The notes under the pieces are model-generated. The model had not been told where the DNA came from and made no database searches. It was given only the letters and a program-made list of their open reading frames with translations. A program made the position numbers and the translations under genes. This document shows positions 2,741 through 18,248 of a stretch of 64,000 nt of DNA, piece after piece. The stretch is from Frigoribacterium sp. Leaf8 (GTDB taxonomy: Bacteria > Actinomycetota > Actinomycetes > Actinomycetales > Microbacteriaceae), in the NCBI RefSeq assembly GCF_001421165.1, contig NZ_LMKB01000001.1:708009-772008 (forward strand), read 5' to 3'. Position 1 is the stretch's first letter; each line of letters starts with the position of its first letter.

Positions 2741-5700
2741 TCACCGCTTGATGATCGGGTCCACCTGCTTCTTCATGCCGTCGACCATGCACGTGCCGAG
2801 CGTGGAGCCCATGCTCGACCACTGGTCGCGGGCGTCGTTGAGGTACGACCCCGACCCGAAGGCGTCGATCGAGTCGACCACCCACTGGACGCCCTGACTG
2901 CCGGCGACGCTCTTCTCGGCCTTGAGCTTCGGGTAGGCGAAGTTGATGGCCTTGTTCGCCAGGGCCGCCCCGCCCTTCGTCCCGAACTTCGCGGCGATGC
3001 TGCTCTCGGTCAGCTTCGGCCCGTGCGCCCAGCTCGAGATGCAGTCGGCGTACATGGCCGGGATCCCGGTGGTCGCCGTGACGATCGCGGTCACCCGGTC
3101 GTACTCGTCGAGACCCTTGCCCGAGACGCCGACGGCCTTCAGCCCCGTCGACACGAGCGACATCGCCGTCCCGAGCACCTTGAGCAGCGTCGCCTCCATC
3201 AACATGATGCCGGTGAGCACCACGGCCCCCAGGGCGATCGTCCGCTGGGCGACGCTCGACAGGCCGTTCACGATCTTCTCGCCGACGCTCGGCGTGTGGA
3301 CGTCGGCCGTGACCGACCGGTCGCCCGTCATGACGACCCAGGACGTCTCGTTCTCGGTCTGGTCGGTGCCCGACCAGCTGTTCAGGTGGCCACCCGCCGG
3401 CACGTCGGCCTGCATCTGCACCACCGTTCCGAGGACGTACTTCGACGGGTCGTTGTCGCAGTTCGGACCGTTGGCGGCCGCCACCCGGGCGCCCAGCGAG
3501 AGCGTCGCGCACTTGGTCCGCAGGAAGATGCCGACCACGGGGGAGGAGCCGTCGGTGGGGATCGTCACCGTCTGCGGGCCCACCGGCAGGTCGTACCCGA
3601 GCGAGCCGTAGTCGGTCAACCCGATCGTGACGGTGCTGCCGGGGCGACCCCACAACGGCGGGCAGCCGCCGTCGTGCGCGATGATGTCGGCCCAACCACC
3701 GTCGTCGAGGTCGGAGAGGTCACCGAAGCGGTTGCCCGTGCGGAGCACGTTGTCGTACCGCCCGTCGGGCTTCTGGACGTGGACGTAGACGGCCAGGGGG
3801 ACGCAGTACTCGATCCGGACGTCGGACATCGGGGTCCCGATGACCGATCCGTCGCGGCTCAGCATCGTGTAGAGGCGGCCGTCGGCTGCCCGGACTCCCT
3901 GGGGCCACCGCACCGTGTCCTCGGACGTCGGCCGGCCGACCGAGGCGATCGCCCGGACGGAGGACGGCGTCGGGGTCGTCGACCGGAGGACGACCGTCTC
4001 ACCCCAGACCCCGGAGTTGTTCGGGCAGACGACCCGGCTCGAGTACTTGGCCGAGTAGTCGAACGACGTCTGCGTCGTGCCACCCTGCGGGTAGCTGAAC
4101 TGGATCGGGCGGCACGTGTCCGACCAGTAGTCGGCGGCGATCGACACGCGGTCTGCGGGGGCGAACTCCATGTAGAGGACCGGGCCCCGTGACGAGCCGT
4201 CGGTCCCCGCGTCGGCGACGGCCTCGAGGCCGTCGACCAGTGACCACCGGATCTCGGCGACCGTGGTCGCCGGTGCGACGTAGTCCGTGTTGCGGTTCAC
4301 CTGCAGCGACCCGTACTCGACCTTGTCGGCCCGCTCGGCGCGGACGATGGCTGTCCCGATGAACCAGTCCGTCTGGGTGACGACGGACTTGAAGCCCTTC
4401 GTCACCGCCCGGTCCACCGACGGGCCACGGCTGCCGCAACGCAGCTCGTCGATCGAGGTCGAGTCGCCGTCGGCCACGTTGGTGAAGGTCGTCGGCGTGT
4501 AGGCCGGCACCGTCTTGTCGGCGCTGATCGGCAACGCCGTGCTCGTCGTGACGGCGACGCAGCGCACGACGCCGTAGTTCACGCCGATGACGAGCTGCGC
4601 CTCCGCGGGGGTCGGCACGACGAAGGTGCGCGTCGCGGTGCCCGCGGCACCCGACCGTCCACCGGCCGGGGCGTCACCAAGGGTCGTGAGGGCGAGCGGG
4701 TCCTCGCCGGTGCGCTTCACCGGACCGAAGTCGCTCGTGCGCCAGTCGAGGAGGTAGGTGCCGTCGTCGGGCGTCGCCCTGACCGTCACCGTCGAGCCGG
4801 GCACGTAGCCCGCCGTGCCGTCGCCCGTCGTGCAGGTGCCGTCGTAGGGCTTCAGGTAGCGGCTCTCGCCGGGGCGCTCCGACGCGATGATCGCCTGCGT
4901 GCCACCGTCGCCGGGACGGATGTCGACGACGCTGCACTCGGCCGCCTTGAACGTGGCACTGACCTTCTGGTCGCCGGTGACGGTGGTCGTGTAGAAGCCA
5001 CGACCGAGCTCGTCCGCCGTCGCCCCGTCGACCGTGTCGACGACGTAGGGTGTGCCGCCGTTGCGGCGGGCCTGGCCGACCGTCGTCACGGGCGTGATGG
5101 CCAGGTCGACGACCGTGCCCACCGCGTAGCGCGGTTCGCCGTTCGCGAGCTGCTCGAGCTCGTCGGCGGTCGGCGTGCGGGGGTCGGTGCAGTTGGGCTT
5201 CGTCAGGGCCTTGACCGTGCCCTTGGCGTAGTACTGCTCGGTGTAGGCGAAGGCCGGGTCGGTCTTCGCCACGATGTCGCCCCGCGGCGTGACCTGGAGC
5301 GTGTGGCAGACCGGTGCGTACCGGGTCGTGAACGAGAGGGACTGGAACGCCGTCACCGTGAAGCGGTACTCGTCGCTGGTCGCGACCCCCTGGCCGTCGA
5401 GGTACCACCCGGCGAACCGATACGGGGCGGCGACGGGCTCGTGACGCGCCGTCACCGACGCACCCGTGACGAACCCGGCACGGTCGCCCCGTCGGCAGGC
5501 GGTCGACGGGTCGCCCGTCACCGTGCTCTGGTAGGCCGTGATCACGATGCAGTCCTTCGGCGTGACCGACGAGACCACGGAGGCGCTGGGCGCGTCGTCC
5601 GCGGAGGTGAAGCGCACCGACACGTCGAGCTTCGTCGACAGCGACGAGCTGGTGGGCAGCGGGACGGTCAGGGTGCAGCGACCCACCGACACGTCGGCCG

Positions 5701-8700
5701 AGCAACTCGCGGAGCCGAGGCGCACCTCGACCGACCCCTTCGGCGCCAGCGAGCTACCGGTGCCCACCTTCCAGCCGAACGTGACGGGGGTGCCCGAGAC
5801 GACGGCCGACAGGTCGGGGGAGCTCGACCAGTCGAGCGTCGTCTGACGGGCCGAACCCGTGACGGTCACGCCGTCGACGGCGCCCTCGTGGTCCGCGTCG
5901 CCCGAGTACCGGACGTCGAGCGTGTTGCGCCCCGTGACGATCGTCTCGGCGGGCAGGGCGCAGAGGCCACCCGCGGCCGGAACGGTGCAGCTGAGGCCGG
6001 ACGGCGAGGCCGTGACGGTGATGGTGCCCGACGGGTTCGGGGCGACGTCCGGGGTGACGTTCGACACCGACGGCGACACCGTCAGCGGTCGCCCGCTCGC
6101 GAAGACCGTGCCGGGCAGGTCGAGCCGGACGGTCGTGCGGGCCTTCAGCACCGAGACGGTCGTCGAGGCCGAGGTGGGCCCGTAGAGCACGCCGTCACCG
6201 GCCACCGAGACGCTGGCGGTGAGGTCCGCGGCGCTGAGCACCTCGGTCGTCACGCGTCCGGTCAGGTAGGGCGACGTGGCCGGGAAGGTGGCCCGCTCGA
6301 GCAGCAGCGTCGACTGCACGCCGCCGATGGTGACGGTGGCCGGGGCGAGCATCAGCGGGGTCAGCGAGCGGTCGGCCGGACGGAGGCGCACCTCGAAGGT
6401 CGCGCGGGTGCCGACCTGCATGCGACCGGTCGCGGCGATCTCGAGCGCCGCGGGGGCGGGCGCCGTCGTCAGCGTGACCGGAGCGCTCGACGCGGTCCAC
6501 GGGCGCGAGCCGTACGAGACCGACGCGACTAGGTCGACCCGTCCGCCGAACGGGCGGGTGACGTCGAGCGTGCCCGACAGGACCGTGCCCACGGGGGACA
6601 GCGTCACGGTGCCGAGCCGGGTCCGGCTGTCACCGGCCACCACGGCCACCGTGGCCTCGGTCCCGGCCGGGATGCCGAAGCCACCGCCGGGAAGGGCGCT
6701 CGCGGTGACGGTCACCGGGACGGCGACCCCGGCGACGTGGGGGCCGTCACCGACGGTCAGGGCGAGCTGCGGGGCGGGCGGTGCCGACCAGGTCGTGACG
6801 GCCGGCGCGGACGTGATCGGCTCGACGCCCACCACCGAGGCGAAGCGTGCGACGGCCGTGTACCGCCACGCGCCGGGCTGCCGCTCGACGACGTCGAGGG
6901 TGCCCGTCAGGCCGCCGGCGAGGTCGACCCGGTCGACGAGCTCGGCCGTGCCACCGGGCAGGGCCCGGTAGACCGAGAGGCTGTCCACCGCGTAGGCGGG
7001 GGCGCCGCCGATGGTCGCGGTGAGCCGGATGGTCGAGTCCAGGGTGGCGGTCGTCGGTGCCGTGAGGGTCACCGTCGGGTCGAGGACGGGGGCGGTGGGC
7101 TGCGCGACCACGTAGGTCACCCCGAGCCAGGTCTGGTCGCCGGCGTACTCGATCCGGTACGAGTGGATGCCCTCGAGCACGGCCACCGGGACGTGGGCAC
7201 TGCCGTCGGCGGCGACGGTGCCGCGCCCGACGACCTGGTCCTCGCTCGTCACCGTGATCGCACCGGTCGGCGCGGGCAGACCGCGGACGGGCACGTAGGA
7301 GGAGTCGAGGTGGGCCGTCCCGGCGGCGGGGTCACCCGACCAGGTCCAGGGCTGGTGTTGCGGCCAGCGCTTCGCGACGACCTGCGAGTCGGAGTCCTTC
7401 GACGAGCGGGCCGAGCCCGCGAGGCCGCTGTACTCGGCCCGCCAGTCGTACGTCCCGGCGACCGTGGCCCCGGTGTAGCTCAGGTACGCCTGCCCGTTCG
7501 TGACGTCGACGCTGCGGACGACGCGCCCGTCGAGGGAGAAGGTCACCGCGCCTCCGGTGACCTTCGAGCCGTCGGCGGTGCGCACGTCGGCGACGAGTCC
7601 GACGGGGTCGCCGACCACGGGCGAGGGCGTCTGCAGCGTCAGGTCGGTGACGGTGTCGGCGAGGGCGACGTCGACGCCCGAGAACTCGGACCCGGTGCCG
7701 TAGTGGCTGTCGGTGTCGGGCACCTCGAAGATGAAGTCGTGGTGGCCGGCCTTGAGCTTGCCCGTGAGGTCGACGACGACGGTCGCCTTCCCGTCGACGA
7801 CCGAGAACGGGGTCGACGCGACGGGGCCGGAGCGCTGGTCGATCATCTCGAGCACGAAGCCGTCGCCGTCGGCGTCGCTGGTGAACGAGAAGGTCACGGT
7901 GTGCTCGTCACCGAACGTGATCGAGTCCGACGGCGAGTGGACCGCCCGGTAGTCGTAGTCGAGACGCGCGCGCTGGAAGTCGGCGGTGACGGTCTGCTCG
8001 CTGCCGGCGTAGGTCGCGTCGGCCGGGACGTACACGAAGCGCAGGTCGACCGAGGTGCTCCCGAGCTCCTTGGTCGGGAGGAAGAAGGGGAAGGCCGAGT
8101 CGGCCAGGTCGAAGTCCGTGACCTCCACGTCTTCTGTCGCGGGGTCGTGGTCGTCGCGGAAGACCTCGACGGTGCCGGTGGGTTCGTCGGTCGTGCCCTC
8201 GGCCGCGACGTCGATCGCGAACTCCTGGTCCTCGCCGAGCGTGGCCACGCCCAGCTGCAGCACGTCGACGGTGGTGGCGATCGGGGCCGGGGCGGCCCGG
8301 GCGACCGACGGGGCCGGTGCGGGTGCCGGTGCCGGTGTCGGCGCCGCGGCCGGTGCAGGAGGCGCGGCCGGGGTGGGGACCGTCGGTGCGGCAGCAGGCG
8401 CGGATGCGGGTGCGGGTGCCTCGGTGTCGGCGGGGCTCGTCGCCGCGGCGGCGGGTCCCGACGTCGGCTGCGGGGTGACGGCGGGAGCGGTGGTCGGCAG
8501 GTCGGCCGGACCGGTCGACGAGGTGACGGGGGCCTCGGCCGCGGAGGCGCTGACGGCGGGCATGAACGGCACCATCAGGGCGACGATCGTGACGACGGCG
8601 ATCGGGCTCGCCTTCGTCCACGGGTGACGCAGGACGCCGGTCAGGCGCCCGGGGACCCGAGGACCGCCGCGTCGGTCGACGCGCACGTCGTCGAGGGGGA

Positions 8701-9514
8701 GCAGGACGGCGAAGACGCTGCCGACGACGACGAGGAACAGGGCGACGAGGCCGACGAGGGCGAGCGTGCCGAGTGAGGTCTGCGCCGTCGTGGCGGTGGG
8801 GGCCGCGAGGACCACCTCCCCGAGGGCGGTCAGGGCGGTCGACACCGCGCCGACCGCGACGACGAGTCCCACCACGGCTGCGGTGCGGGTCCGGAGCGTG
8901 GTGACCGCCCGGCGGAGCAGCGACCGCAGCGAGTCCGGGTGCGACAGGGACGCCGGCAGGGCCGTGATCGTCAGGCCCACCGCGACGAGCACCGGCGCGA
9001 AGGGGATCGCGAGGAGCAGCGTGCGGCGGATCGTCCGACGCGGGGCGGACCGCAGTCGCAGCACCCCCGCCGTGACCAGGGCGCCCAGGCTGAGGGGCAG
9101 GGCGACGAGCGCCCCGACCAGGACGGCGAGCACGAGCAGCAGCTCGACCGCGAGGAGGCGCGGCAGCGACCGGAGCGCGTGCGTCAGACCCCGACGCAGG
9201 GTGCGTCGACCCCCGGCGGTCGACTGCGAGATCGTCGACGAGACCGCCAGGACGGCCGTGACGACGGTGAGTGCGGCGACGCCGTACTGGACGGCTCGCA
9301 CCACGAACGACGTCGTGACCAGGGCCGAACCCGAGGCCTGGGTGACGTCGCCGGTGATCAGACCGACGATGAGCAGGGCGAGCAGTTCGAGCAGGACGGC
9401 CGCGGTGACGACGACCAGGGCGAGGACGACTGCCCGGAGCAGGAGGCGGGGGCGGAGGACCGCGCGGGCACGGGTGCCGAGCGGGCGCAGGCGGGCAGGG
9501 AAGGATGAAGCCAT
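2741..9514 (-). CDS. Giant multi-domain membrane-anchored Ig-repeat surface protein
   Basis: About 2257 residues. Residues 1-280 hold six hydrophobic helices arranged like a GPDPase-type membrane module. A signal-peptide-like segment follows at about 300-330 (WTKASPIAVVTIVALMVPF then AVSASA), then a Pro/Ala linker (about 330-405). A long extracellular part carries bacterial Ig-like (Big_3_5-type) repeats ending in YSG or SGDADH motifs. Next come a cysteine-containing InlB-B-like segment (FAGWYLDGQG) and further repeats. A hydrophobic stretch sits near 2090-2125, before a 130-residue C-terminal domain with two cysteines. Start ATG 9514 has GAGGA about 10 bases upstream; the frame continues open to 9595. 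Adhesion or wall spanning is inferred from architecture only. It resembles no single described adhesin that I know. Confidence 0.8.
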   Translation of the reverse strand: MASSFPARLRPLGTRARAVLRPRLLLRAVVLALVVVTAAVLLELLALLIVGLITGDVTQASGSALVTTSFVVRAVQYGVAALTVVTAVLAVSSTISQSTAGGRRTLRRGLTHALRSLPRLLAVELLLVLAVLVGALVALPLSLGALVTAGVLRLRSAPRRTIRRTLLLAIPFAPVLVAVGLTITALPASLSHPDSLRSLLRRAVTTLRTRTAAVVGLVVAVGAVSTALTALGEVVLAAPTATTAQTSLGTLALVGLVALFLVVVGSVFAVLLPLDDVRVDRRGGPRVPGRLTGVLRHPWTKASPIAVVTIVALMVPFMPAVSASAAEAPVTSSTGPADLPTTAPAVTPQPTSGPAAAATSPADTEAPAPASAPAAAPTVPTPAAPPAPAAAPTPAPAPAPAPSVARAAPAPIATTVDVLQLGVATLGEDQEFAIDVAAEGTTDEPTGTVEVFRDDHDPATEDVEVTDFDLADSAFPFFLPTKELGSTSVDLRFVYVPADATYAGSEQTVTADFQRARLDYDYRAVHSPSDSITFGDEHTVTFSFTSDADGDGFVLEMIDQRSGPVASTPFSVVDGKATVVVDLTGKLKAGHHDFIFEVPDTDSHYGTGSEFSGVDVALADTVTDLTLQTPSPVVGDPVGLVADVRTADGSKVTGGAVTFSLDGRVVRSVDVTNGQAYLSYTGATVAGTYDWRAEYSGLAGSARSSKDSDSQVVAKRWPQHQPWTWSGDPAAGTAHLDSSYVPVRGLPAPTGAITVTSEDQVVGRGTVAADGSAHVPVAVLEGIHSYRIEYAGDQTWLGVTYVVAQPTAPVLDPTVTLTAPTTATLDSTIRLTATIGGAPAYAVDSLSVYRALPGGTAELVDRVDLAGGLTGTLDVVERQPGAWRYTAVARFASVVGVEPITSAPAVTTWSAPPAPQLALTVGDGPHVAGVAVPVTVTASALPGGGFGIPAGTEATVAVVAGDSRTRLGTVTLSPVGTVLSGTLDVTRPFGGRVDLVASVSYGSRPWTASSAPVTLTTAPAPAALEIAATGRMQVGTRATFEVRLRPADRSLTPLMLAPATVTIGGVQSTLLLERATFPATSPYLTGRVTTEVLSAADLTASVSVAGDGVLYGPTSASTTVSVLKARTTVRLDLPGTVFASGRPLTVSPSVSNVTPDVAPNPSGTITVTASPSGLSCTVPAAGGLCALPAETIVTGRNTLDVRYSGDADHEGAVDGVTVTGSARQTTLDWSSSPDLSAVVSGTPVTFGWKVGTGSSLAPKGSVEVRLGSASCSADVSVGRCTLTVPLPTSSSLSTKLDVSVRFTSADDAPSASVVSSVTPKDCIVITAYQSTVTGDPSTACRRGDRAGFVTGASVTARHEPVAAPYRFAGWYLDGQGVATSDEYRFTVTAFQSLSFTTRYAPVCHTLQVTPRGDIVAKTDPAFAYTEQYYAKGTVKALTKPNCTDPRTPTADELEQLANGEPRYAVGTVVDLAITPVTTVGQARRNGGTPYVVDTVDGATADELGRGFYTTTVTGDQKVSATFKAAECSVVDIRPGDGGTQAIIASERPGESRYLKPYDGTCTTGDGTAGYVPGSTVTVRATPDDGTYLLDWRTSDFGPVKRTGEDPLALTTLGDAPAGGRSGAAGTATRTFVVPTPAEAQLVIGVNYGVVRCVAVTTSTALPISADKTVPAYTPTTFTNVADGDSTSIDELRCGSRGPSVDRAVTKGFKSVVTQTDWFIGTAIVRAERADKVEYGSLQVNRNTDYVAPATTVAEIRWSLVDGLEAVADAGTDGSSRGPVLYMEFAPADRVSIAADYWSDTCRPIQFSYPQGGTTQTSFDYSAKYSSRVVCPNNSGVWGETVVLRSTTPTPSSVRAIASVGRPTSEDTVRWPQGVRAADGRLYTMLSRDGSVIGTPMSDVRIEYCVPLAVYVHVQKPDGRYDNVLRTGNRFGDLSDLDDGGWADIIAHDGGCPPLWGRPGSTVTIGLTDYGSLGYDLPVGPQTVTIPTDGSSPVVGIFLRTKCATLSLGARVAAANGPNCDNDPSKYVLGTVVQMQADVPAGGHLNSWSGTDQTENETSWVVMTGDRSVTADVHTPSVGEKIVNGLSSVAQRTIALGAVVLTGIMLMEATLLKVLGTAMSLVSTGLKAVGVSGKGLDEYDRVTAIVTATTGIPAMYADCISSWAHGPKLTESSIAAKFGTKGGAALANKAINFAYPKLKAEKSVAGSQGVQWVVDSIDAFGSGSYLNDARDQWSSMGSTLGTCMVDGMKKQVDPIIKR

Positions 9515-9608
9515 GGCGGGGGTGTCCTCGACGGTCGAGCGCTTCGGGAGCGCGCCAGACGGAGACGACGGGTGAGCCCGGCACCACCTCCACACGGTGG
9601 TTCATCTG

Positions 9609-9646
9609 GATACCGAACAGTATCGAGATGGTCGAGGGCGCGACAA
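9609..9646 (-). promoter_or_regulatory. Promoter with overlapping inverted repeat upstream of the giant surface gene
   Basis: Reading the minus strand, TTGTCG (9646-9641) and GATACT (9624-9619) are separated by 16 bp and fit -35 and -10 elements about 100 bp before the ATG at 9514. The -10 overlaps an inverted repeat GATAC-N6-GTATC (9609-9624), which could be an operator. The binding protein is unknown. Confidence 0.45.
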
Positions 9647-9675
9647 TCGGCCCGGTACCCCCAGTAAGGAGGGGG

Positions 9676-10107
9676 TCAGTCGTTGTCGGGCACGCAGGCG
9701 TAGTCGTCGCCGAAGGCCTCGGTGACGCGGCGGATGGCTTCGGGTGTGCCCCACTGCTCGACGTCCTCGCAGGCGTGGTCGGCCCGGGACGCGTACATGC
9801 CGAACGCCCCGACGTCGACGTAGCCGTAGTCGTAGCGATCCGAGGGGCGTCCGCCGGCGCCGGGCTCGTCGGGCAGGTCGATGACGAAGCCGTCGGGGAA
9901 GCGCAGCTCGACCCCGTGCGGTGCACAGGCCGGGAGGGTCTCCGTCGTGAGGTCGGCCACGATCACCGGCTCGTAGGTCGTGCAGTACGGGAGGCGCGCG
10001 TCGGACCCCGACAGCACGAGCGGCACGTCCGGGTCGGCCCGCACCGCGAGCACCAGCAGCACCGACACCACGAGCAGCGCGGTGACGATGCCGGCGAGGA
10101 CCTTCAT
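9676..10107 (-). CDS. Membrane-anchored or secreted cysteine-containing protein, unknown function
   Basis: A 143-residue protein with an N-terminal hydrophobic helix (about residues 3-22) that acts as signal anchor, then an exported domain with four cysteines (about 42, 61, 112 and 138), which could form two disulfides. No family is recognised. It is transcribed in the same direction as the giant surface gene and ends about 160 bp before that gene's ATG, with a promoter in between, so co-transcription is possible but not required. Start ATG 10107 is the only good start. Confidence 0.6.
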   Translation of the reverse strand: MKVLAGIVTALLVVSVLLVLAVRADPDVPLVLSGSDARLPYCTTYEPVIVADLTTETLPACAPHGVELRFPDGFVIDLPDEPGAGGRPSDRYDYGYVDVGAFGMYASRADHACEDVEQWGTPEAIRRVTEAFGDDYACVPDND

Positions 10108-10255
10108 GAGGTGAACCTACCGCCGGATCGACGTCGTGCGATCGCGAATGGAGCGGTGTTCCTGGGCATCACGTCAATCGACTGGCATCGACCGGCGCGA
10201 GCGTCCTAGCGTTTTCCCGACCAATCAGTACCGAGATGAAGGAGCAGTGCTTCTC

Positions 10256-10480
10256 GTGACGAACTGGCTCCGCGCCCTCGCCCCGCTCGCCCTGACCACG
10301 ATCGCCCTGGTCGTCTTCTTCACGGCCGACCACACCGTCGGGATGCTCCTGATCGTGGCCGCCCTCGCCTCGGCGTTCCTCGTCGGCACGGGCGCCGGTC
10401 AGCCGAACCGCGCCTCCTGGGCCAGGCGTCAGGCCGCGACGTCGAAGACGACGACCCGGGCGGACGCGTCGCCGAGGTAG
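10256..10480 (+). CDS. Small two-helix membrane protein, unknown function
   Basis: A 74-residue protein with two hydrophobic helices (about residues 6-24 and 29-48) and a basic Ser/Thr/Arg-rich tail. I chose GTG 10256 because AAGGAG at 10239-10244 is 11 bases upstream; GTG 10247 is too close to it and the upstream in-frame extension to 10136 is not protein-like. The 3' end overlaps the convergent Dabb gene (10429) by about 50 bp, so the last 17 codons may be poorly conserved. Confidence 0.55.
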   Translation: MTNWLRALAPLALTTIALVVFFTADHTVGMLLIVAALASAFLVGTGAGQPNRASWARRQAATSKTTTRADASPR

Positions 10481-10740
10481 CTCGCCACCGGCTGGTGCGA
10501 GGGGTGCGGCAGGTAGCCGTCGCGGGCCGCGGCGTCACGGAAGCGCACCACGAGCATCCAGTCGAAGCCGGCCTCGAGCTGCTCGGGGCTGAAGCTCTCG
10601 CCACTCGACACCGACAGCACGCCGTCGATGCCGGTCAGGTGCTCGGTCGACAGCCGCGTCGCCTGCTCGGCCACGTCGGCCGGGGCCCCCTCGGCCCACT
10701 CGACCAACACCACGTGCACGATCTCGTCCGTGTCGGCCAT
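10429..10740 (-). CDS. Dabb (stress-responsive A/B barrel) domain protein
   Basis: A 103-residue single-domain protein of the dimeric alpha/beta barrel fold (Dabb, PF02876-like). It opens with IVHVVLVEWAEGAP, has a central EHLTGIDGVLSVSSGESFSPE region and a FDWMLVVRFRD strand, followed by the usual YLPHPSHQPVASYL motif. Family members act as small cyclases or have no known activity, so no reaction can be assigned. ATG 10740 follows GAGGGG at good spacing. It lies downstream of the apionate-type operon but is separated from it by the 10842-10885 hairpin and so probably has its own promoter. Confidence 0.8.
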   Translation of the reverse strand: MADTDEIVHVVLVEWAEGAPADVAEQATRLSTEHLTGIDGVLSVSSGESFSPEQLEAGFDWMLVVRFRDAAARDGYLPHPSHQPVASYLGDASARVVVFDVAA

Positions 10741-10841
10741 CCGCGCATCCCCTCGTCGTCGCCGCTCGCCGCGGCAGGTCACCCGATCCTGACACGGGCG
10801 TCGTCCCGGCGGTCGGCCCGGGCGACCACCGCACCACGCGA

Positions 10842-10885
10842 GAACGCAGGAGGCGCGGGTCACGCGACCCGCGCCTCCTGCGTTC
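10842..10885. terminator. Long perfect hairpin terminator with GGAGGCGCGG core
   Basis: Arms of 20 bp (GAACGCAGGAGGCGCGGGTC and its complement) with the loop ACGC. It lies 14 bp past the stop of the apnO-like gene on the minus strand and so ends the apionate-type operon. The core and loop are identical to the hairpin at 18326-18365. Confidence 0.75.
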
Positions 10886-10898
10886 CCGGCGTCGCGGC

Positions 10899-11819
10899 CT
10901 AGCGGCGGACGGCGTCGATCTTCAGCATGCGCGCGATGACCGAGTCGAGCTGGCTGTCGTCGAAGATCTTCTTCCAGTCGTCGCGGACGATCGACTCGCG
11001 GCCGTAGTCCATGGCGATGTGGCAGGCGTCGCTGAACGGGTTCGAGCCGCGCAGGCCGTTCGTCAGCGCGATCCAGGTGTGGCCGTAGAGCATCGCGCGA
11101 GCGGCCTCGTAGGGGACCCCGACGCCGTCGACGGTCTCCTCGAGCGCCTCCTTCAGGAACGCCCCGATCATGCAGGCCATCGTCTCGACCAGCGTCGGCT
11201 CGAGCACGGCCAGCTGCTTGACCGTCACGTAGTGCACGGCGATGACGGGTGCGTAGATCGTCGAGATGACCTGCGTCATGAGCTCGCGGACGGGCGAGTC
11301 CTCGGCCACGCCCTCGAGCGCGGCGACGACCTCCTGCGGGGCGGCCACGCCACCGAAGGTGTCGGCCCACTCCTCCTTCGTGGTGCGCTCGAGGAACACG
11401 CTGGGGTGGCAGGGGTGCGCCACCGCGTAGTGGATGTCCTCGCGCACGGCGAGCAGGCCCGCGTACGCGGCCGCGGGGTCGAGGGTGAGGATGACGGCGC
11501 CGGTCTTCATCGCCGGGACGACCTGCTCGGAGACCTTGCCGAGCACCACGTCGGGCACGGCCAGGATGACCACGTCGGCGTCCGCCACGGCCACGTCGGT
11601 CGCGGTGACCGAGCGGCCGAGCGACTCGATCAGCTCGACGCCGGCGGGCGACGCCTCGCTGTAGAGGGTCGTGTACGCGCTCTTGGCGAGGTTGTTCGAG
11701 ACGCGCTGGCCCATCTTGCCGCCGGCGCCGATGACGGCGACGGTGACGTCGGACGAGCCCTGGCCGTCGGCGTACGTGACGGTGCTCTCGGGGGCGGTCG
11801 TGTCGAGGGTGTCAGTCAT
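10899..11819 (-). CDS. apnO: D-apionate oxidoisomerase-like dehydrogenase
   Basis: A 306-residue NAD(P)-dependent enzyme. An N-terminal Rossmann domain starts at AVIGAGGKMGQR (residues 28-39), followed by VVILAVPD. The conserved HPCHPSVF segment (about residue 137) and the all-helical C-terminal half match the phosphogluconate-dehydrogenase-like family that contains ApnO. ApnO oxidises and isomerises D-apionate to 3-oxo-isoapionate (known for characterised members). The assignment rests on this family match plus context: all genes needed to process the resulting L-erythrulose follow in the same operon. The start overlaps the next gene (stop at 11812) by 8 bp, so translation is coupled. An alternative is a dehydrogenase for another branched sugar acid. 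Confidence 0.68.
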   Translation of the reverse strand: MTDTLDTTAPESTVTYADGQGSSDVTVAVIGAGGKMGQRVSNNLAKSAYTTLYSEASPAGVELIESLGRSVTATDVAVADADVVILAVPDVVLGKVSEQVVPAMKTGAVILTLDPAAAYAGLLAVREDIHYAVAHPCHPSVFLERTTKEEWADTFGGVAAPQEVVAALEGVAEDSPVRELMTQVISTIYAPVIAVHYVTVKQLAVLEPTLVETMACMIGAFLKEALEETVDGVGVPYEAARAMLYGHTWIALTNGLRGSNPFSDACHIAMDYGRESIVRDDWKKIFDDSQLDSVIARMLKIDAVRR

Positions 11820-12621
11820 TGTTCTTGCTCCTTAGTTCAGAGATGGTTCGTGTCGTCCACTCGGCTTCGAGCCGCGTGGTGGTCTCGGGATCGCCCTGCC
11901 AGGGCAGCCAGTGCTCGACGACCTGGTTGACGGGGCTGGTGCCGCCGTCGCGGGCGTCGAGCGCGGCACGGATGCCGTCGTAGTCGAGGCGGCCCTCGCC
12001 GAGGGGCGTGCTGGTGAGCGCGAAGCCGACCCAGCCGTCCTTCCGTGAGAAGGCGAAGTCCTTGACGTGCCAGTTGGCGACGAACGGCAGGCAGCGCGCG
12101 GTCACGTCGGCCGGGTGCTCCAGGTTCGCGACGGTGTTGGCCGGGTCGAGCACGATGCCGAGCCGCGGGCTGGCGACCGCCCGCACGACGGCCACGAGCT
12201 CGGTCGAACCGACCTGCTCGTAGGTCTCGAGGGCGAGGGTGACCCCCGCCTCCTCGTACTCGGGCAGCACCTCGCGCAGCCGGCGCTCGGTCTCGGCCGC
12301 GTCGGGACGGTCGTCGCCCGCCGTCCACATGCCGCGGACCAAGGAGGCGCGCAGCGCGACGGCGAGGCGCAGCCACGTCCGCAGGACGGTCGGCCCGGTG
12401 CCCCGGGTGCCGAGTTCGAGCGTCAGCCCGAGCTCGTCGGCGAGGTCGCGCAGCGCGGCGAGCTGCTCGTCGGTGTAGCCGGTCAGGGCCTCGTGGTCGC
12501 AGATCTGGAACAGCCGGACGCCCTGCGCGGCCGTGTCACGCAGCATGTCGTCGAGCGTCATCGGCTGCGGGACGAGGTCGCTGCCCCGCCAGAAGTACGC
12601 GTAGGTGCTGAGGCCGATCAC
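11812..12621 (-). CDS. oiaX: Xylose-isomerase-like TIM-barrel enzyme, probable 3-oxo-isoapionate decarboxylase
   Basis: A 269-residue AP-endonuclease-2/xylose-isomerase-like barrel. Family metal-site segments are visible: LALETYEQVG (Glu on strand 4-5), GIVLDPANT (Asp), ANWHVKDF (His/Lys) and VNQVVEHW (Glu). Such enzymes isomerise, epimerise, dehydrate or decarboxylate small sugars. In one described D-apionate pathway a decarboxylase, which I recall as belonging to this superfamily, turns 3-oxo-isoapionate into L-erythrulose; that is the step missing between its two neighbours. The assignment is inference from position. It overlaps both neighbours (8 bp with the oxidoisomerase, 4 bp with the TIM-family isomerase). 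A hydroxypyruvate-isomerase-type activity is the alternative. Confidence 0.55.
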   Translation of the reverse strand: MIGLSTYAYFWRGSDLVPQPMTLDDMLRDTAAQGVRLFQICDHEALTGYTDEQLAALRDLADELGLTLELGTRGTGPTVLRTWLRLAVALRASLVRGMWTAGDDRPDAAETERRLREVLPEYEEAGVTLALETYEQVGSTELVAVVRAVASPRLGIVLDPANTVANLEHPADVTARCLPFVANWHVKDFAFSRKDGWVGFALTSTPLGEGRLDYDGIRAALDARDGGTSPVNQVVEHWLPWQGDPETTTRLEAEWTTRTISELRSKNND

Positions 12622-13487
12622 GAGGCCACCTCGTCCCGGCGTGCGGCGTCGGGGGCCGGCGTCTCGTCGAGTGCGGGTGCCTCATCGAGCGCGAGTGCGA
12701 GCGCCTCGTCGAGGATGCGCTCCACCGCGGAGGCGTCGTGGGCGAAGCGACCGAGGAACAGCCCACGGACCTGGCCGCCCAGACCGGTCAGCAGCCCCGG
12801 ACCGGCGCTGCCGCCGTAGATCACCCGGCTGCCGGCGCGATCGGCCAGCCCGGCGAGGTGGTCCTCGACGGCCGCGACCACCGCGGTGATGTGGCCCGCG
12901 GACGCCGGCACCGGTGCGCCGATCGCCCAGAGCGGCTCGTACGCCACGACGAGGGCACCCGGGAGGCGGGCCTCGTCGGCTGCCGCCAGGGCGAGGTCGA
13001 TCTGCTGCGTCACCTCGAGCGCGGCGAGGGCGGGCGACGTCTCGTCGGCCTCGCCCACGCAGAGCAGCGGAGTGATGCCGTGGCGCAGCGCCGCCGCCGT
13101 CTTGGCCGCGACGACCGCGTCGTCCTCGTGGAAGAGCGTCCGCCGTTCGGCGTGGCCGATCTCGGCGAGGGTGCAGCCGATCTCGGCCAGCTCGGCGCCG
13201 CTCACCTCGCCCGTGAAGGCGCCCGAGTCGTCGGTCGCGAGGTCCTGGGCACCGAGGCGGACCGAGGTGCCGGCCAGCGCCTCCTGCACGGGGACGAGCG
13301 ACGGGAACGTCGGCACGACGAACAGGTCGACGACGCCCCGCCGGACGGCCGGGTGGCGCCGCGCGATCTCGGCCACCTCGGTGCTCCACGCGAGGGTCCT
13401 CGCGTGCGAGAAGTACATCTTGAGGCTCACCCCGATCGTGAAGCGGGCCGGGGAGGGCCGGACGGGGGCGGTCACCGGATCGCTCAC
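12618..13487 (-). CDS. lerI: TIM-family L-erythrulose-1-phosphate isomerase
   Basis: A 289-residue triosephosphate-isomerase homologue that keeps the catalytic set: Lys in GVSLKMYF, His in EIGHAERR and Glu in AYEPLWAIG. It also has the phosphate-binding YGGSAGPGL loop. The NWKMN of glycolytic TIM is replaced by SLKMY, and the C terminus carries an extra acidic Ala/Pro tail of about 30 residues. In characterised tetritol pathways (Mycobacterium smegmatis LerI, Brucella EryH) such TIM paralogues convert L-erythrulose 1-phosphate to D-erythrulose 4-phosphate. Placement between a kinase/RpiB pair and apnO-like genes favours that role over glycolysis. It overlaps both neighbours by 4 bp. Confidence 0.72.
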
Positions 13488-13972
13488 GCCGCGTCGATGC
13501 CGACGCGCTCGCCCGACCCGTCGTAGCCACAGATGGCCGCGACCTTCTCGGCCGAGGCGCTCGAGGTGTCGAAGCGGTAGGTGAGGAACTCCTTCGCCAG
13601 GCGGCGCATGAGCTCGACGCCGATCACGCGCTGGCCCATGCAGAGCACCTGGGCGTCGTTCGAGAGGACGGCGCGTTCGACCGAGAACGTGTCGTGCGCG
13701 GTCACCGCCCGGATGCCGGGCACCTTGTTGGCCGCGATGGCGACGCCGAGCCCGGTGCCGCAGATCAGGATCGCGCGGTCGGCGCGGCCGTCGGCGACCA
13801 TGCGGGCCGCCTCGACGGCGACGTGCGGGTAGGCGGTGTGGCCGTCGGCGGCGACCCCGACGTCGGTGACGCTCGCCACGCCGTCGTTCGCCTCGAGGTC
13901 CTTCTTGAGGACCTCTTTGTAGTCGTACCCGGCGTCGTCCGATCCGACGACGATGCGCAGCTGGTCAGCCAT
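13484..13972 (-). CDS. derI: RpiB-family D-erythrulose-4-phosphate isomerase
   Basis: A 162-residue LacAB/RpiB sugar-phosphate isomerase with the [10 protein letters not shown] start, the active-site [13 protein letters not shown] loop (catalytic Cys) and [29 protein letters not shown]. Members include ribose-5-phosphate isomerase B and the tetrose-specific DerI/EryI, which makes D-erythrose 4-phosphate from D-erythrulose 4-phosphate. The ATGA overlap with the TIM-family gene argues for the tetrulose role. It begins 36 bp after the kinase gene. Sequence alone does not exclude a ribose-5-phosphate specificity. Confidence 0.72.
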
Positions 13973-14008
13973 GGTGGTGCCTTTCGTGGAGGGTGTGAGG
14001 GGGAGGGG

Positions 14009-15745
14009 TCACGCGGCGGGCTGCGGCGCGAGGACGCGTCCGACGGCCCGCGTGATGAGCCCGAGCGAGGTGGCGCCGGCGTCGGGCGTGCCGAGGCTCT
14101 TCTCGGCGTGCGGCCGGGCGCGGCCCATCTTGGGCAGGAGGTCGGCCGTCGCCGCGGCCGCCGTCACGGCGACCTCGGCCGCGGTGGCCCAGGCCGTGGC
14201 GAGGTCGGCCCCGTCGTCGACCGCCGCGGAGAGGGCCGCGTCGAAGGGGACGAGCACGTCGACCATGGTCTTGTCGCCGACCGTGGCGCCGAACTCGAGG
14301 ATCGCCTCGGTCGCGGCGGAGACGCCGCGGGACACGGAGGCGCGGTCCGGGGCCGCCTCGTCGCCCACGGCCGCGCCGAGGCTCGCGAGGGCGGCACCCC
14401 AGAGGGCTCCGGAGGTGCCCCCGGCCCGATCGGACCAGGCGTCGCCGGCGAGGTCGAGGACGGTGCCCGCCCCCGCACCGGCGAGCACGGCCTCGCGGGC
14501 GGCGGCGACGGCGGCGTGGACCCCGCGCTGCATGCCGATGCCGTGGTCGCCGTCCCCGGCGACGGCGTCGATGCGTCCGAGCTCGTCGACGTTCTCCTCG
14601 ACCGTGGCCTGCACCGCCTCGAGGGCGCTCAGCACCAGCTGGGCGGCCTGCCGGGACGCCGGGGTCGCGGGCGGGATCGCGATGGCGACCCGCGCCTCCT
14701 GCTCGGCGTCGTCCGCCCGCGACGCGACGTCGACGGAGCCCTTCTTGTAGGCGGGTGCGTCGACCGGGGCCGCCCAGAGGCGCTCGAGCTCGTCGTCGAG
14801 CCAGAACAGGGTCAGCGAGACGCCGGCCATGTCGAAGCTCGTGACGAGCTCGCCGACCTCGGGCTCGACGACCTCGACGCCCGCCTCGCGGAGCAGGGCG
14901 TCGACCCGGGCGTAGACCACGAAGAGCTCTTCGTACTTGACCGAGCCGAGTCCGTTGAGCAGCACGGCCACCTTGCGCCCGCGCGCCTCGTCGACCCCGT
15001 CGGGCAGTTCGTCGCTCGCGAGCAACGCCTCGACGAGCAGCTCGGCGAGGCCGTCCGCCGTGGGGACGTCGGTCTCGCCGATGCCGGGCTCGCCGTGGAT
15101 GCCCATGCCGACGGCCATGCGGCCCTCGGGCACGGTGAAGAGCGGTTCGTCGGCCCCGGGCAGCGAGCAGCCCGAGAACGCCACGCCGACGCTGCGGGTG
15201 CGTTCGTTCGCCTTGACGGCGACGCGGACGACGTCGTCGAGGTCGGCGCCCTCCTCGGCGGCGGCCGCGGCGGACTTGAAGACGGTGAGGTCGCCGGCGA
15301 TGCCGCGACGCTTGTGCTTGTCGGCGATCGACGCGCTCGAGATGTCGTCGGTGACGGCGACCGTGCGGGTCTCGATGCCCTCGTCGATCAGCTTCTGCTG
15401 GGCCTTGTCGAAGTTGAGGACGTCACCGGCGTAGTTGCCGTAGCTCAGCAGGACGCCCCCGCCGTTCTGCGCCGACTTCGCGACCGACCTGACCTGCTGC
15501 CACGAGGGCGAGGCGAAGAGGTTGCCGAGGGCCGCGCCGTGGGCGAGCCCCTGCCCGACGAGTCCGCCGAAGGCCGGGTAGTGACCCGAGCCACCGCCGA
15601 CGACGAGCGCGACGCTGCCGGGGGCCGAGCGGGTCGCCCGGACCACGCCGCCGTGCACCCGTCGCACCCAGCGCTGGTTGGCGGCCACGAAGCCGTCGAT
15701 CATCTCGTCGGCGAAGTCGCCCGGATCGTTGAAGAGGCGTGTCAT
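14009..15745 (-). CDS. lerK: DhaKL-type ATP-dependent ketose kinase, probable L-erythrulose kinase
   Basis: A 578-residue fusion of a DhaK (Dak1) domain (residues 1-330) and a DhaL (Dak2) domain (about 365-575). The DhaK part shows VGGGSGHYPAFGG and LGNLFASP, plus GMGIHGEPG, whose His forms the hemiaminal with the ketose substrate. The DhaL part carries AGDGDHGIGMQRG, the Asp triad that binds Mg-ATP. Single-chain DhaKL proteins are ATP-dependent (not PEP-dependent) kinases of dihydroxyacetone or tetruloses. Co-occurrence with TIM and RpiB paralogues is the signature of tetrulose catabolism in actinobacteria. A role in dihydroxyacetone phosphorylation is the alternative. Confidence 0.75.
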   Translation of the reverse strand: MTRLFNDPGDFADEMIDGFVAANQRWVRRVHGGVVRATRSAPGSVALVVGGGSGHYPAFGGLVGQGLAHGAALGNLFASPSWQQVRSVAKSAQNGGGVLLSYGNYAGDVLNFDKAQQKLIDEGIETRTVAVTDDISSASIADKHKRRGIAGDLTVFKSAAAAAEEGADLDDVVRVAVKANERTRSVGVAFSGCSLPGADEPLFTVPEGRMAVGMGIHGEPGIGETDVPTADGLAELLVEALLASDELPDGVDEARGRKVAVLLNGLGSVKYEELFVVYARVDALLREAGVEVVEPEVGELVTSFDMAGVSLTLFWLDDELERLWAAPVDAPAYKKGSVDVASRADDAEQEARVAIAIPPATPASRQAAQLVLSALEAVQATVEENVDELGRIDAVAGDGDHGIGMQRGVHAAVAAAREAVLAGAGAGTVLDLAGDAWSDRAGGTSGALWGAALASLGAAVGDEAAPDRASVSRGVSAATEAILEFGATVGDKTMVDVLVPFDAALSAAVDDGADLATAWATAAEVAVTAAAATADLLPKMGRARPHAEKSLGTPDAGATSLGLITRAVGRVLAPQPAA

Positions 15746-15865
15746 GAGAACTCCAGGAGGCGGTGGTCCGGTCGACGGCGCGACGGCACGGCGACGGGGT
15801 GCGGAGGGGGCGGGGCCCGGGTCGGTGATCGTCCGGGCCCCGCGGGGGGAGGGGGTGAGCGTCGG

Positions 15866-17260
15866 TCAGTCGAGCCCGGCGGTCGCCGCCAGGTCGGCCT
15901 GCTCGCGGGGGCTGAGGGTGCCCTCGGGCTTCTTCATCCGGCTGAGCGCGATCATCAGCGCGGCCGACAGCAGCATGAAGAACCCGACGATGAACATCGG
16001 CACCCGGTAGTCGCCGGTGACGTCGGTGACCAGGCCCGTGATGTACGGGGCGCTGAAGCCGGCGAGGTTGCCGACCGTGTTGATGAGCGCGATGCCCGCG
16101 GCCGCCGCGGCCCCGGTCAGGAACTGCGTGGGCAGGGTCCAGAAGTTGGGCAGGGCCGCGAAGATCGCCATGGCGGTGACCGCGATCACCGCGATGGTGA
16201 GGGCGGGGGACTGTGCGTAGAGCGCCAGCGGGATGCTCAGACCGCCCACGACGGCGGGGATGACGATGTGCCAGGTCTTGAGGCCGCGACGCGAGGCGTC
16301 ACGCGACCAGAAGTACAGGGCGATGGCCGCGGGGACGTAGGGGATGGCCGTGATGAAGCCGCGCTGGGTGACGGTGAACTCGGTGCCGAACTGCTCCTGG
16401 AAGCCGCCGATGATGGTGGGCAGGAAGAACGCGAGCGCGTAGAGGCCGTAGATGAAGCCGAAGTAGATGAACGAGAGCATCCAGACGCGGCCGTTCTTGA
16501 AGACGACGCCGAGGCCCGGGTGCTTGCCGGTGGTCGAGACGGCACCCGTCTTCGTCGAGGCCTCCTTCACCAGCGCCTGGGTCAGCCAGACCTGCTCTTC
16601 CTTGGTGAGCCACTTGGCGTCGGCAGGCTTGTCCTTGAGGTAGAACCAGGCGACGATCCCGACGACGATCGCGGGGATGGCGACGCCCATGAACATGAAG
16701 CGCCAGCCCTCGAGGCCGAAGAAGACGCCGTCGTGGCTGATCAACCAGCCGGCGAGCGGGGCACCGATGACGGTGGTGAGGGGCTGCGCCAGGTAGAAGA
16801 GGGCGAGGATCTTGCTGCGGTGGGCGGCCGGCACCCACAGGCTCAGGAAGAGGATCGCGCCGGGGAAGAAGCCGGCCTCCATGACGCCGAGCAGGAAGCG
16901 CAGCGCGACGAGCTGCTCGAAGTTCTGCACCCAGGTGAAGAGCAACGCCACGATGCCCCAGGTCACCATGATGCGGGCGAGCCACTTGCGGGCACCGAAC
17001 TTGTGCAGGGCGAGGTTCGACGGCACCTCCAACAGGATGTAGCCGATGAAGAACACGCCGGAGGCGAAGCCGAACTGGGCCGCCGACAGGGCGAGGTCGG
17101 ACTCCATGCCGTTCGGCGCCGCGAAGCCGATGGCGGTGCGGTCGAGGTAGTTGATGAAGAACATCAACGCCACGAACGGGACGAGCCGGACGGCGACTTT
17201 CTTGATCGCGGACTTCTCGACCGCGCTCTGTGGCGCGCTCGTTCGGGTGGTGGTGTCCAC
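15866..17260 (-). CDS. MFS transporter, anion:cation symporter (sugar-acid) type
   Basis: A 464-residue twelve-helix permease. Family marks are FINYLDRTAIGFA in helix 1 and LGVMEAGFFPGAILFLSLWVP in helix 4, typical of the ACS family (phthalate, galactonate, tartrate carriers). Uptake of an acidic sugar such as D-apionate fits the enzymes encoded downstream. I chose GTG 17260 because AAGGAG is 5 bases upstream. The open frame continues to 17371 but would read through the promoter at 17331-17368. It is the first gene of the operon; about 120 bp separate it from the kinase gene. Confidence 0.8.
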   Translation of the reverse strand: MDTTTRTSAPQSAVEKSAIKKVAVRLVPFVALMFFINYLDRTAIGFAAPNGMESDLALSAAQFGFASGVFFIGYILLEVPSNLALHKFGARKWLARIMVTWGIVALLFTWVQNFEQLVALRFLLGVMEAGFFPGAILFLSLWVPAAHRSKILALFYLAQPLTTVIGAPLAGWLISHDGVFFGLEGWRFMFMGVAIPAIVVGIVAWFYLKDKPADAKWLTKEEQVWLTQALVKEASTKTGAVSTTGKHPGLGVVFKNGRVWMLSFIYFGFIYGLYALAFFLPTIIGGFQEQFGTEFTVTQRGFITAIPYVPAAIALYFWSRDASRRGLKTWHIVIPAVVGGLSIPLALYAQSPALTIAVIAVTAMAIFAALPNFWTLPTQFLTGAAAAAGIALINTVGNLAGFSAPYITGLVTDVTGDYRVPMFIVGFFMLLSAALMIALSRMKKPEGTLSPREQADLAATAGLD

Positions 17261-17330
17261 ATCGACTCCTTCGGATCTAACGACGTTGTTGGATGACGCC
17301 TTCGACCGATGCCGGTGGCGCGCAGGGACC

Positions 17331-17368
17331 ATCGTGCCTTTTTCGCCGATATCTGTCAACCGGTTGAC
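17331..17368 (-). promoter_or_regulatory. Operon promoter with perfect GntR-type operator
   Basis: On the minus strand TTGACA (17359-17354) and CACGAT (17336-17331) are 17 bp apart and fit -35 and -10. The -35 is embedded in the perfect 14-bp palindrome GTCAACCGGTTGAC (17355-17368), a typical operator for FadR/FCD-type GntR proteins. The divergent gene at 17511 encodes such a protein, so repression of the operon is likely. Confidence 0.65.
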
Positions 17369-17408
17369 CAATTCAGCGGCGGGACGGAGCGGCGCGAGTG
17401 CCTCGAAA

Positions 17409-17496
17409 GGTGGACCCGTGGGCCCCGCGAGCTGGACCCGTGGGCCCCGCGAGCTGGACCCGTGGGCCCCGAGAGCTGGACCCGTGGGCCCCGCTG
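17409..17496 (+). repeat. Four 22-bp tandem repeats
   Basis: Four copies of GCTGGACCCGTGGGCCCCGCGA in exact register, with one to three changes in the first, third and fourth copies. They fill the divergent region between the operator at 17355-17368 and the regulator start at 17511. Each unit contains the palindrome GGGCCC. Confidence 0.85.
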
Positions 17497-17510
17497 ACTA
17501 AGCTCGCACC

Positions 17511-18248
17511 GTGCCGGCATACCCAGAGAGCGACCCCACGAGCCTCGATCTCGAGCTCGAGATGGTCCCGCGCGGCACCGCGGTCAGCGAGGTCGTCAAG
17601 CAGCTCGTGGCCCTCCTGACGGCCGGCGAACTGACCCCCGGGTCGCGCCTCCCACCCGAGCGGCAGCTCGCCGAACGTCTCGGCGTCGGGCGGTCGGCCG
17701 TCCGCGAGGCCCTGGCCGCCCTCGAGATCCTCGGCATCGTCACGGTGCGCCCGGGCTCGGGCACCTACCTGCGCGACCAGACCTCGGAGTTGCTGCCGAC
17801 CACGCTCAGCTGGGGTCTCATGCTGAACGCGGCACGCACGCGCGAGCTCATCGAGGTCCGGGGCGGGCTCGAGATCCAGGCCGCCGCCTACGCCGCCGAG
17901 CGGGCCACGGACGCCGACGTCGACGCCCTGCGGGGGTACATCGAGGTGATGGCCGACTCGCTCGAGGACCTCGACGCGTTCCTCCAGGCCGACATCCGGT
18001 TCCACCTGCAGATCGCCGTCAGCGCCGACAACGTCGTGCTCAAGGACCTCCTGCAGAGCACCCGGTCGCTGCTGCGCCTCTGGGTCGAACGCGGGCTCAC
18101 CGAGAAGGACCAGGCCGAGGCCGCGTACCGCGAACACTGCGCCGTCTTCCGCGCGATCGAGGCACGCGATCCCGACGCCGCGCTCGCCGCGATGCGCGAC
18201 CACATGGCCACCGCCGCCGACCGGGTCCGGAGCGCCACGGTCGTCTAG
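17511..18248 (+). CDS. FadR-subfamily GntR transcriptional regulator of the apionate-type operon
   Basis: A 245-residue protein with an N-terminal winged helix (residues 25-90; LPPERQLAERLGVGRSAVREALAAL is the recognition region, ending GSGTYL). An all-helical FCD ligand domain follows. It has the usual Asp/His metal-site positions in DIRFHLQIAV and the closing EHCAVFRAI segment. Members sense organic or sugar acids and usually repress. It is divergent from the catabolic operon, whose -35 lies in a palindrome of the FadR type. GTG 17511 lies 7 bp after TAAGCT, a TANNNT -10, suggesting a leaderless message. The inducer is inferred to be a pathway intermediate. Confidence 0.85.
   Translation: MPAYPESDPTSLDLELEMVPRGTAVSEVVKQLVALLTAGELTPGSRLPPERQLAERLGVGRSAVREALAALEILGIVTVRPGSGTYLRDQTSELLPTTLSWGLMLNAARTRELIEVRGGLEIQAAAYAAERATDADVDALRGYIEVMADSLEDLDAFLQADIRFHLQIAVSADNVVLKDLLQSTRSLLRLWVERGLTEKDQAEAAYREHCAVFRAIEARDPDAALAAMRDHMATAADRVRSATVV

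Follow-up and report, generated by a model that had tools for sequence, protein, structure and literature searches.

What substrate is served by a compact set of five enzyme genes that is transcribed together with a sugar-acid transporter gene, opposite a GntR-type regulator, in the actinobacterium Frigoribacterium sp. Leaf8 (family Microbacteriaceae)? The set lies in a stretch of 64,000 nucleotides (positions 708,009 to 772,008 of contig NZ_LMKB01000001.1; hereafter the window, in whose numbering positions are given), where the six genes form an operon, all reading in one direction on the minus strand (10899-17260), with the FCD-type GntR gene on the opposite strand. In order of transcription they encode an MFS transporter of the ACS type, a fused DhaK-DhaL kinase, an RpiB-like protein, a TIM-like protein, a barrel protein and a dehydrogenase with a PF16896 domain. 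Genes overlap at three junctions (by 8, 4 and 4 nt), while gaps of 36 nt and 120 nt mark the RpiB/DhaKL and DhaKL/MFS junctions, respectively. Domain matches and coordinates bear out the gene set, the overlapping ends and the opposed FCD GntR gene that had been listed in a preliminary description of this DNA. As judged from sequence comparison, this is very probably an inducible operon that allows growth on D-apionate: the acid would be imported by the MFS protein, an ApnO-like enzyme would oxidize it and move its hydroxymethyl group to give 3-oxo-isoapionate, in a manner resembling a ketol-acid reductoisomerase acting in reverse, and a metal-dependent barrel enzyme would decarboxylate this beta-keto acid to L-erythrulose, the predicted substrate of the kinase.

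The dehydrogenase (10899-11819, minus strand) is the predicted ApnO-like D-apionate oxidoisomerase. Besides its PF16896 (PGDH_C) match of 185 bits it shows a Rossmann domain and weak matches to ketol-acid reductoisomerases, a likeness to be expected of an enzyme that both oxidizes its substrate and migrates a carbon group; its PDB matches are 5t57 (214 bits) and 3c24. Naming either this protein or the decarboxylase by NCBIfam and PDB sequence searches alone was abandoned, as these returned no name and gene context was needed. A tree of 46 rows splits the ApnO-like proteins in two: a 35-row clade, which includes the window's protein and has a barrel gene in the locus for 34 of its rows, and an 11-row clade in which OiaK-linked loci stand together with plasmid copies from rhizobia and rhodobacteria and with the two PDB chains. 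Copies adjoining both the apionolactonase ApnL and the D-apiose dehydrogenase ApsD are present in both clades; those in the barrel-linked clade come from Pseudomonas, Halotalea, Salinicola and Salinisphaera. Hence, of the ApnO grouping on which the preliminary description had staked its reading, the kinship with copies from apiose clusters stands, while the long branch from the OiaK-linked clade, considered below, qualifies it.

The barrel protein (11812-12621, minus strand; PF01261, AP_endonuc_2) is predicted to be an OiaC-like 3-oxo-isoapionate decarboxylase of xylose isomerase-like fold. A decarboxylase of the xylose isomerase family was reportedly assigned to this step by Carter et al. in 2018. 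Such a gene stands beside ApnO in the window and lies at most 600 nt from it in 44 of 48 loci; these 48, the window's own included, are those among 60 fetched family loci that extend at least 7 kb to both sides of ApnO. An AF2 model built from 31 sequences, its own included, reached a pLDDT of 93.4; among solved structures its fold comes closest to the isomerase Art22, a glucal hydratase and D-tagatose/D-psicose 3-epimerases (15-19% identity). The residues E132, D159, H185 and E236, which lie close to where barrel strands end, are invariant in all 31 sequences and, by analogy with the superfamily, would bind a metal. These features would most naturally be read as those of an enzyme that decarboxylates the beta-keto acid 3-oxo-isoapionate with the help of a metal.

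The remaining three enzymes belong to the right families for a kinase and two isomerases that would take L-erythrulose to D-erythrose 4-phosphate. The DhaK-DhaL fusion (14009-15745, minus strand; Dak1 and Dak2 domains), which exceeds the cut-off of NF011049 with 730 bits, is a predicted LerK-like L-erythrulose kinase, and the RpiB-family protein (13484-13972, minus strand; PF02502, and TIGR02133 above its cut-off with 203 bits) a predicted DerI-like D-erythrulose-4-phosphate isomerase. The TIM paralog (12618-13487, minus strand), a predicted LerI-like L-erythrulose-1-phosphate isomerase, matches PF00121 with 179 bits, against 287 bits for a second, typical TIM encoded in the same genome. Among the 185 PDB matches of the operon copy the L-erythrulose-1-phosphate isomerase 11ef ranks fifth, below four entries named triosephosphate isomerase; it is not among the best 60 of the 184 matches of the typical TIM. 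The operon TIM thus appears to be a diverged second copy, which points to LerI. In PMC10733421, LerI, DerI and EltD/LerK are described as a module yielding erythrose 4-phosphate, and the resemblance of the kinase and isomerase genes to this tetritol module, used there with the dehydrogenase EltD, raises the alternative that the operon serves a tetritol (erythritol, L-threitol) or L-erythrulose, with its two front genes in some other role. We regard this as quite unlikely: no tetritol dehydrogenase is seen among the families of the operon, and the distribution of the front genes tells against it as well.

Among 299 genomes of the Microbacteriaceae, ApnO-like genes (E<=1e-20) are present in 62 and the apionolactonase family ApnL (NF049900, E<=1e-10) in 50. 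The two occur together in 49 genomes, ApnO alone in 13 and ApnL alone in one (Fisher ~8e-43, uncorrected for relatedness); ApnL therefore tracks ApnO, as use of a tetritol would not lead one to expect. In the 48 loci, moreover, the barrel gene is retained in 46 and the kinase gene in only 38; the counts for RpiB, TIM, MFS and a GntR match are 38, 37, 35 and 43, respectively, and all six other genes are present in 30. These counts record presence only, since gene order varies among the loci of relatives (e.g. L063 and L076). A gene set conserved to this extent argues that the operon is not a chance assembly. Within the genus, ApnO is found in 11 of 16 genomes.

A D-apionate pathway also accords with gene neighborhoods in a collection of named genomes, where we examined the best 80 loci of 406 relatives. 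Related genes were recovered there from Pantoea, Erwinia, Pectobacterium, Pseudomonas, Salinicola, Kushneria, Prauserella and Mycolicibacterium; the gene set of the operon recurs in Pseudomonas, Prauserella, Mycolicibacterium and many enterobacteria. In Pseudomonas and Halotalea they adjoin ApsD, ApnL and a sugar ABC transporter; matches to both ApsD and ApnL above 100 bits, by similarity to probes, occur in 15 of these 80 loci, and in five Pseudomonas loci these two are joined by all of the kinase and isomerase genes. Most often (49 of the 80) the operon has neither ApsD nor ApnL nearby. Within the Microbacteriaceae, a cluster of apiosidase-like proteins (PF13204; three loci) and one of alpha-L-rhamnosidases (six loci) are found near the operons of some relatives, each cluster being named from one scanned member. 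At loci L152-L154, L156, L157, L161, L162, L172 and L174, from Pseudomonas, Halotalea, Salinicola and Salinisphaera, ApnL is split into two neighboring pieces that may be two genes. The D-apionate operon proposed in the preliminary description is, by comparison, supported by these ApsD and ApnL neighbors, by the co-occurrence of ApnO and ApnL in the family and by an operator shared with front-end genes, described below.

Several observations weigh against a D-apionate operon. None of the NCBIfam models matched names ApnO or a decarboxylase; the DerI model NF051858 gives the RpiB-like protein 154 bits, below its cut-off of 240; and no ApnL match in the Microbacteriaceae reaches the curated NF049900 cut-off of 750 bits. 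Some gammaproteobacterial loci have the MFS, barrel and ApnO genes and no DhaK, TIM or RpiB nearby. The MFS gene is not linked to the absence of ApnL (10 of 12 loci without ApnL, 25 of 36 with it); a role of the transporter as a replacement for ApnL, having no statistical support among the 48 loci, was dropped. In two relatives (L102 and L103) the barrel gene, 48 and 46% identical to that of the window, stands beside OiaK; an OiaX-like RuBisCO-like protein is also encoded in the L102 operon, and L103 has a member of that cluster, though one not scanned itself. Finally, between the window's ApnO and the ApnO of the OiaK-linked clade identity is only 40-43%, with 34% to 3c24, and the two clades are separated by a branch of 1.85, among those that the tree program flags as long, which makes a changed detail of the reaction possible.

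This branch speaks for a sister pathway that acts on a different sugar acid, branched or short, in which the ApnO clade of the window would have changed its substrate. Consistent with such a change, ApnL is unmatched in 37 of the 49 genomes behind named loci with an ApnO-barrel pair (mainly enterobacteria), and ApnO without ApnL is the state of the window's genome and of 13 of the 62 family genomes with ApnO, the latter only a minority. Nevertheless, we consider a different acid unlikely: members of the very same clade lie beside ApsD and ApnL in the four proteobacterial genera named above, apiosidase-like and rhamnosidase genes accompany the operon in some relatives, and 52 near-invariant positions, including an HPCHP motif, are common to both clades, as against five fixed differences.

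The loci with OiaK bear on a further alternative, namely that 3-oxo-isoapionate is handled by the OiaK/OiaX route, with its kinase and RuBisCO-like protein, while the barrel enzyme acts in another step. That route shares the ApnO step, and OiaK/OiaX genes lie beside ApnO in plasmid loci as well as in loci of the family (L102-L104, two of them with the barrel gene); two OiaK-like proteins encoded beside ApnO score 387 and 452 bits. It differs in that phosphorylation precedes decarboxylation and in that its ApnO belongs to the other clade. For the window's operon it is disfavored, and we regard it as very improbable indeed: OiaK has no match in the locus, and the sole match to the OiaK model in the genome (OiaX was not searched genome-wide) lies on another contig with 122 bits, far from the cut-off of 700, with similar copies in members of the genus that lack ApnO; furthermore, the operon kinase is of the dihydroxyacetone/L-erythrulose type instead. 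The barrel enzyme is not, however, a strict alternative to the kinase route, since L102 and L103 have both; a rule of strict exclusivity between it and OiaK was dropped for this reason. In L102 a single run (8238-14330 of that locus) holds OiaK-like, ApnO, ApnL, OiaX-like RuBisCO-like and OiaC-like barrel genes together. In strain LCG007, according to PMC11747546, a cluster of ApnL, apiose dehydrogenase, ApnO, kinase and decarboxylase accompanies growth on D-apiose.

Returning to the D-apionate operon, does the pathway begin with the acid or with the sugar D-apiose? For degradation from the sugar, the window's genome shows no match to ApnL, which is matched in 2 of 16 genomes of the genus, though a lactonase of another family is possible. 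Nor is a D-apiose dehydrogenase seen: ApsD, looked for at the locus only and not genome-wide, is unmatched there, and a short-chain dehydrogenase (SDR) that accompanies ApnL in relatives is missing from the genome at E<=1e-40, being present in the same two genus members as ApnL. Apiosidase is found in none of the 16. Within this scope the lack of an apiose dehydrogenase and a lactonase, remarked on in the preliminary description, holds good; its derivation of the acid from plant walls was that reader's own ecology, and finds no apiosidase in the genus to go with it. Given the lack of ApnL, apiosidase and the ApnL-linked SDR, the operon is likely to act on D-apionate as such, unless a dehydrogenase and a lactonase of other kinds take their place.

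The SDR itself forms part of a front end in the relatives. At E<=1e-60 it occurs in 46 of the 299 family genomes, all of them among the 50 with ApnL (Fisher 6e-50), and in 40 of the 46 it is encoded within 600 nt of ApnL. As ApsD has no match in the 60 family loci, this SDR (e.g. L079:13834-14586, minus strand), confined to genomes with ApnL and often behind the same operator as the operon, is probably the D-apiose dehydrogenase of these Microbacteriaceae, replacing ApsD. It seems to us an even proposition that D-apionate is itself a nutrient, that many carriers of the ApnO-barrel pair use apionate only, fed by apiose-oxidizing neighbors, and that the front end in Microbacteriaceae, an undescribed SDR-type D-apiose 1-dehydrogenase plus ApnL, is a separable module, often under the same GntR operator, that is gained or lost as a block.

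How might such an operon be controlled? The divergent gene (17511-18248, plus strand; PF00392 and PF07729) encodes a predicted FCD-type GntR repressor, and the promoter region it shares with the operon has a 14-bp palindrome, GTCAACCGGTTGAC (17355-17368), to which it is predicted to bind. The operator announced in the preliminary description is thus real: the exact site is unique in its own genome and conserved in relatives. Places with at most two mismatches number 29 in the genome, against 10 for a reversed control pattern. In 48 regions upstream of clear GntR relatives, the window's own among them, the best site is exact in 20, has one to three mismatches in 24 and is worse in four, while in a control 13 of 960 segments from the same loci, which may include true sites, reach at most one mismatch, with no control count at three. 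With at most one mismatch the site is present in 52 of 60 loci, whereas chance alone should give ~6 hits over the entire 1.1 Mb. A predicted promoter for the operon (17331-17359, minus strand) has a -35 box, TTGACA (17359-17354), that overlaps the operator, a spacing of 17 nt and a weak -10 box, CACGAT (17336-17331); no promoter was returned for 17250-17560 by a generic scan. Among 38 regions in which the 12-base core is exact, 20 have TTGACA-like and -10-like hexamers scoring at least 9/12 with the -35 box overlapping the palindrome, a count that has no shuffled control. The repressor would therefore act by covering the -35 box and be released by an acid of the pathway. Further, in a scripted count over the 28 loci with the SDR and/or ApnL in view, the motif precedes one or both by at most 300 nt in 16 and is absent upstream of them in 12; among other predicted frames it does so in 14 of 625. 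This suggests that the operon and the SDR/ApnL genes form one regulon. In L087 a site precedes a rhamnosidase gene. Between the operator and the GntR start a GC-rich 22-bp unit is repeated in tandem about four times (17395-17504), and the operator stands ~70 nt farther from that start in the window than in the relative L046.

The operator also helps to place the start of the transporter gene (15866-17260, minus strand), since it lies between two candidates: a TTG at 17371 was rejected in favor of the better-placed GTG at 17260, which has AAGGAG five bases upstream. The protein is nearest to the D-galactonate (ACS) type, with 264 bits to TIGR00893, below the cut-off of 395, and is likely to be the D-apionate importer.

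A GC-rich hairpin with perfect 11-bp arms (15810-15843) falls inside the 120-nt gap between the MFS and DhaKL genes. At the operon end, a repeat search found another with 23-bp arms and a 4-nt loop (10839-10888), which, though without a T run, is a possible terminator. Beyond it sits a Dabb (PF07876) gene (10429-10737, minus strand), rejected as a member of the operon because it matches in only one of the 48 loci, its own. Just past the operon there is also an open frame of 2284 aa (2741-9595, minus strand) with the look, by eye and with no search made, of a repetitive surface protein.

D-apionate degradation through a 3-oxo-isoapionate decarboxylase (OiaC) was reportedly established by Carter et al. 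in 2018 (Nat Chem Biol 14:696). As reported there, the OiaC route has the same steps, namely ApnO, a xylose isomerase-like decarboxylase, LerK, LerI and DerI; in the window it differs in that an MFS gene heads the operon, ApnL and the linked dehydrogenase are missing, an FCD GntR regulator has its own operator and the kinase is a DhaKL fusion. The D-apionate work of Carter et al. is cited in PMC13001218 and PMC6302742. Tetritol catabolism (PMC10733421) shares the last three steps (LerK, LerI, DerI), but its entry is a tetritol dehydrogenase rather than an acid. Among the titles and abstracts listed in literature searches, none describes such an operon in Actinobacteria, and no paper on apiose in Curtobacterium was among them. 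The chemistry of the pathway is already known, and what is new is the regulator site, the apionate-only form and the SDR linked to ApnL in relatives. Roughly one in five of the Microbacteriaceae genomes sampled can be assigned the decarboxylase route for breaking down apionate, and many members of this family are associated with plants. The analysis also furnishes the operon with a regulator, a testable operator and candidate substrates and, in the SDR of its relatives, offers a likely new apiose dehydrogenase.

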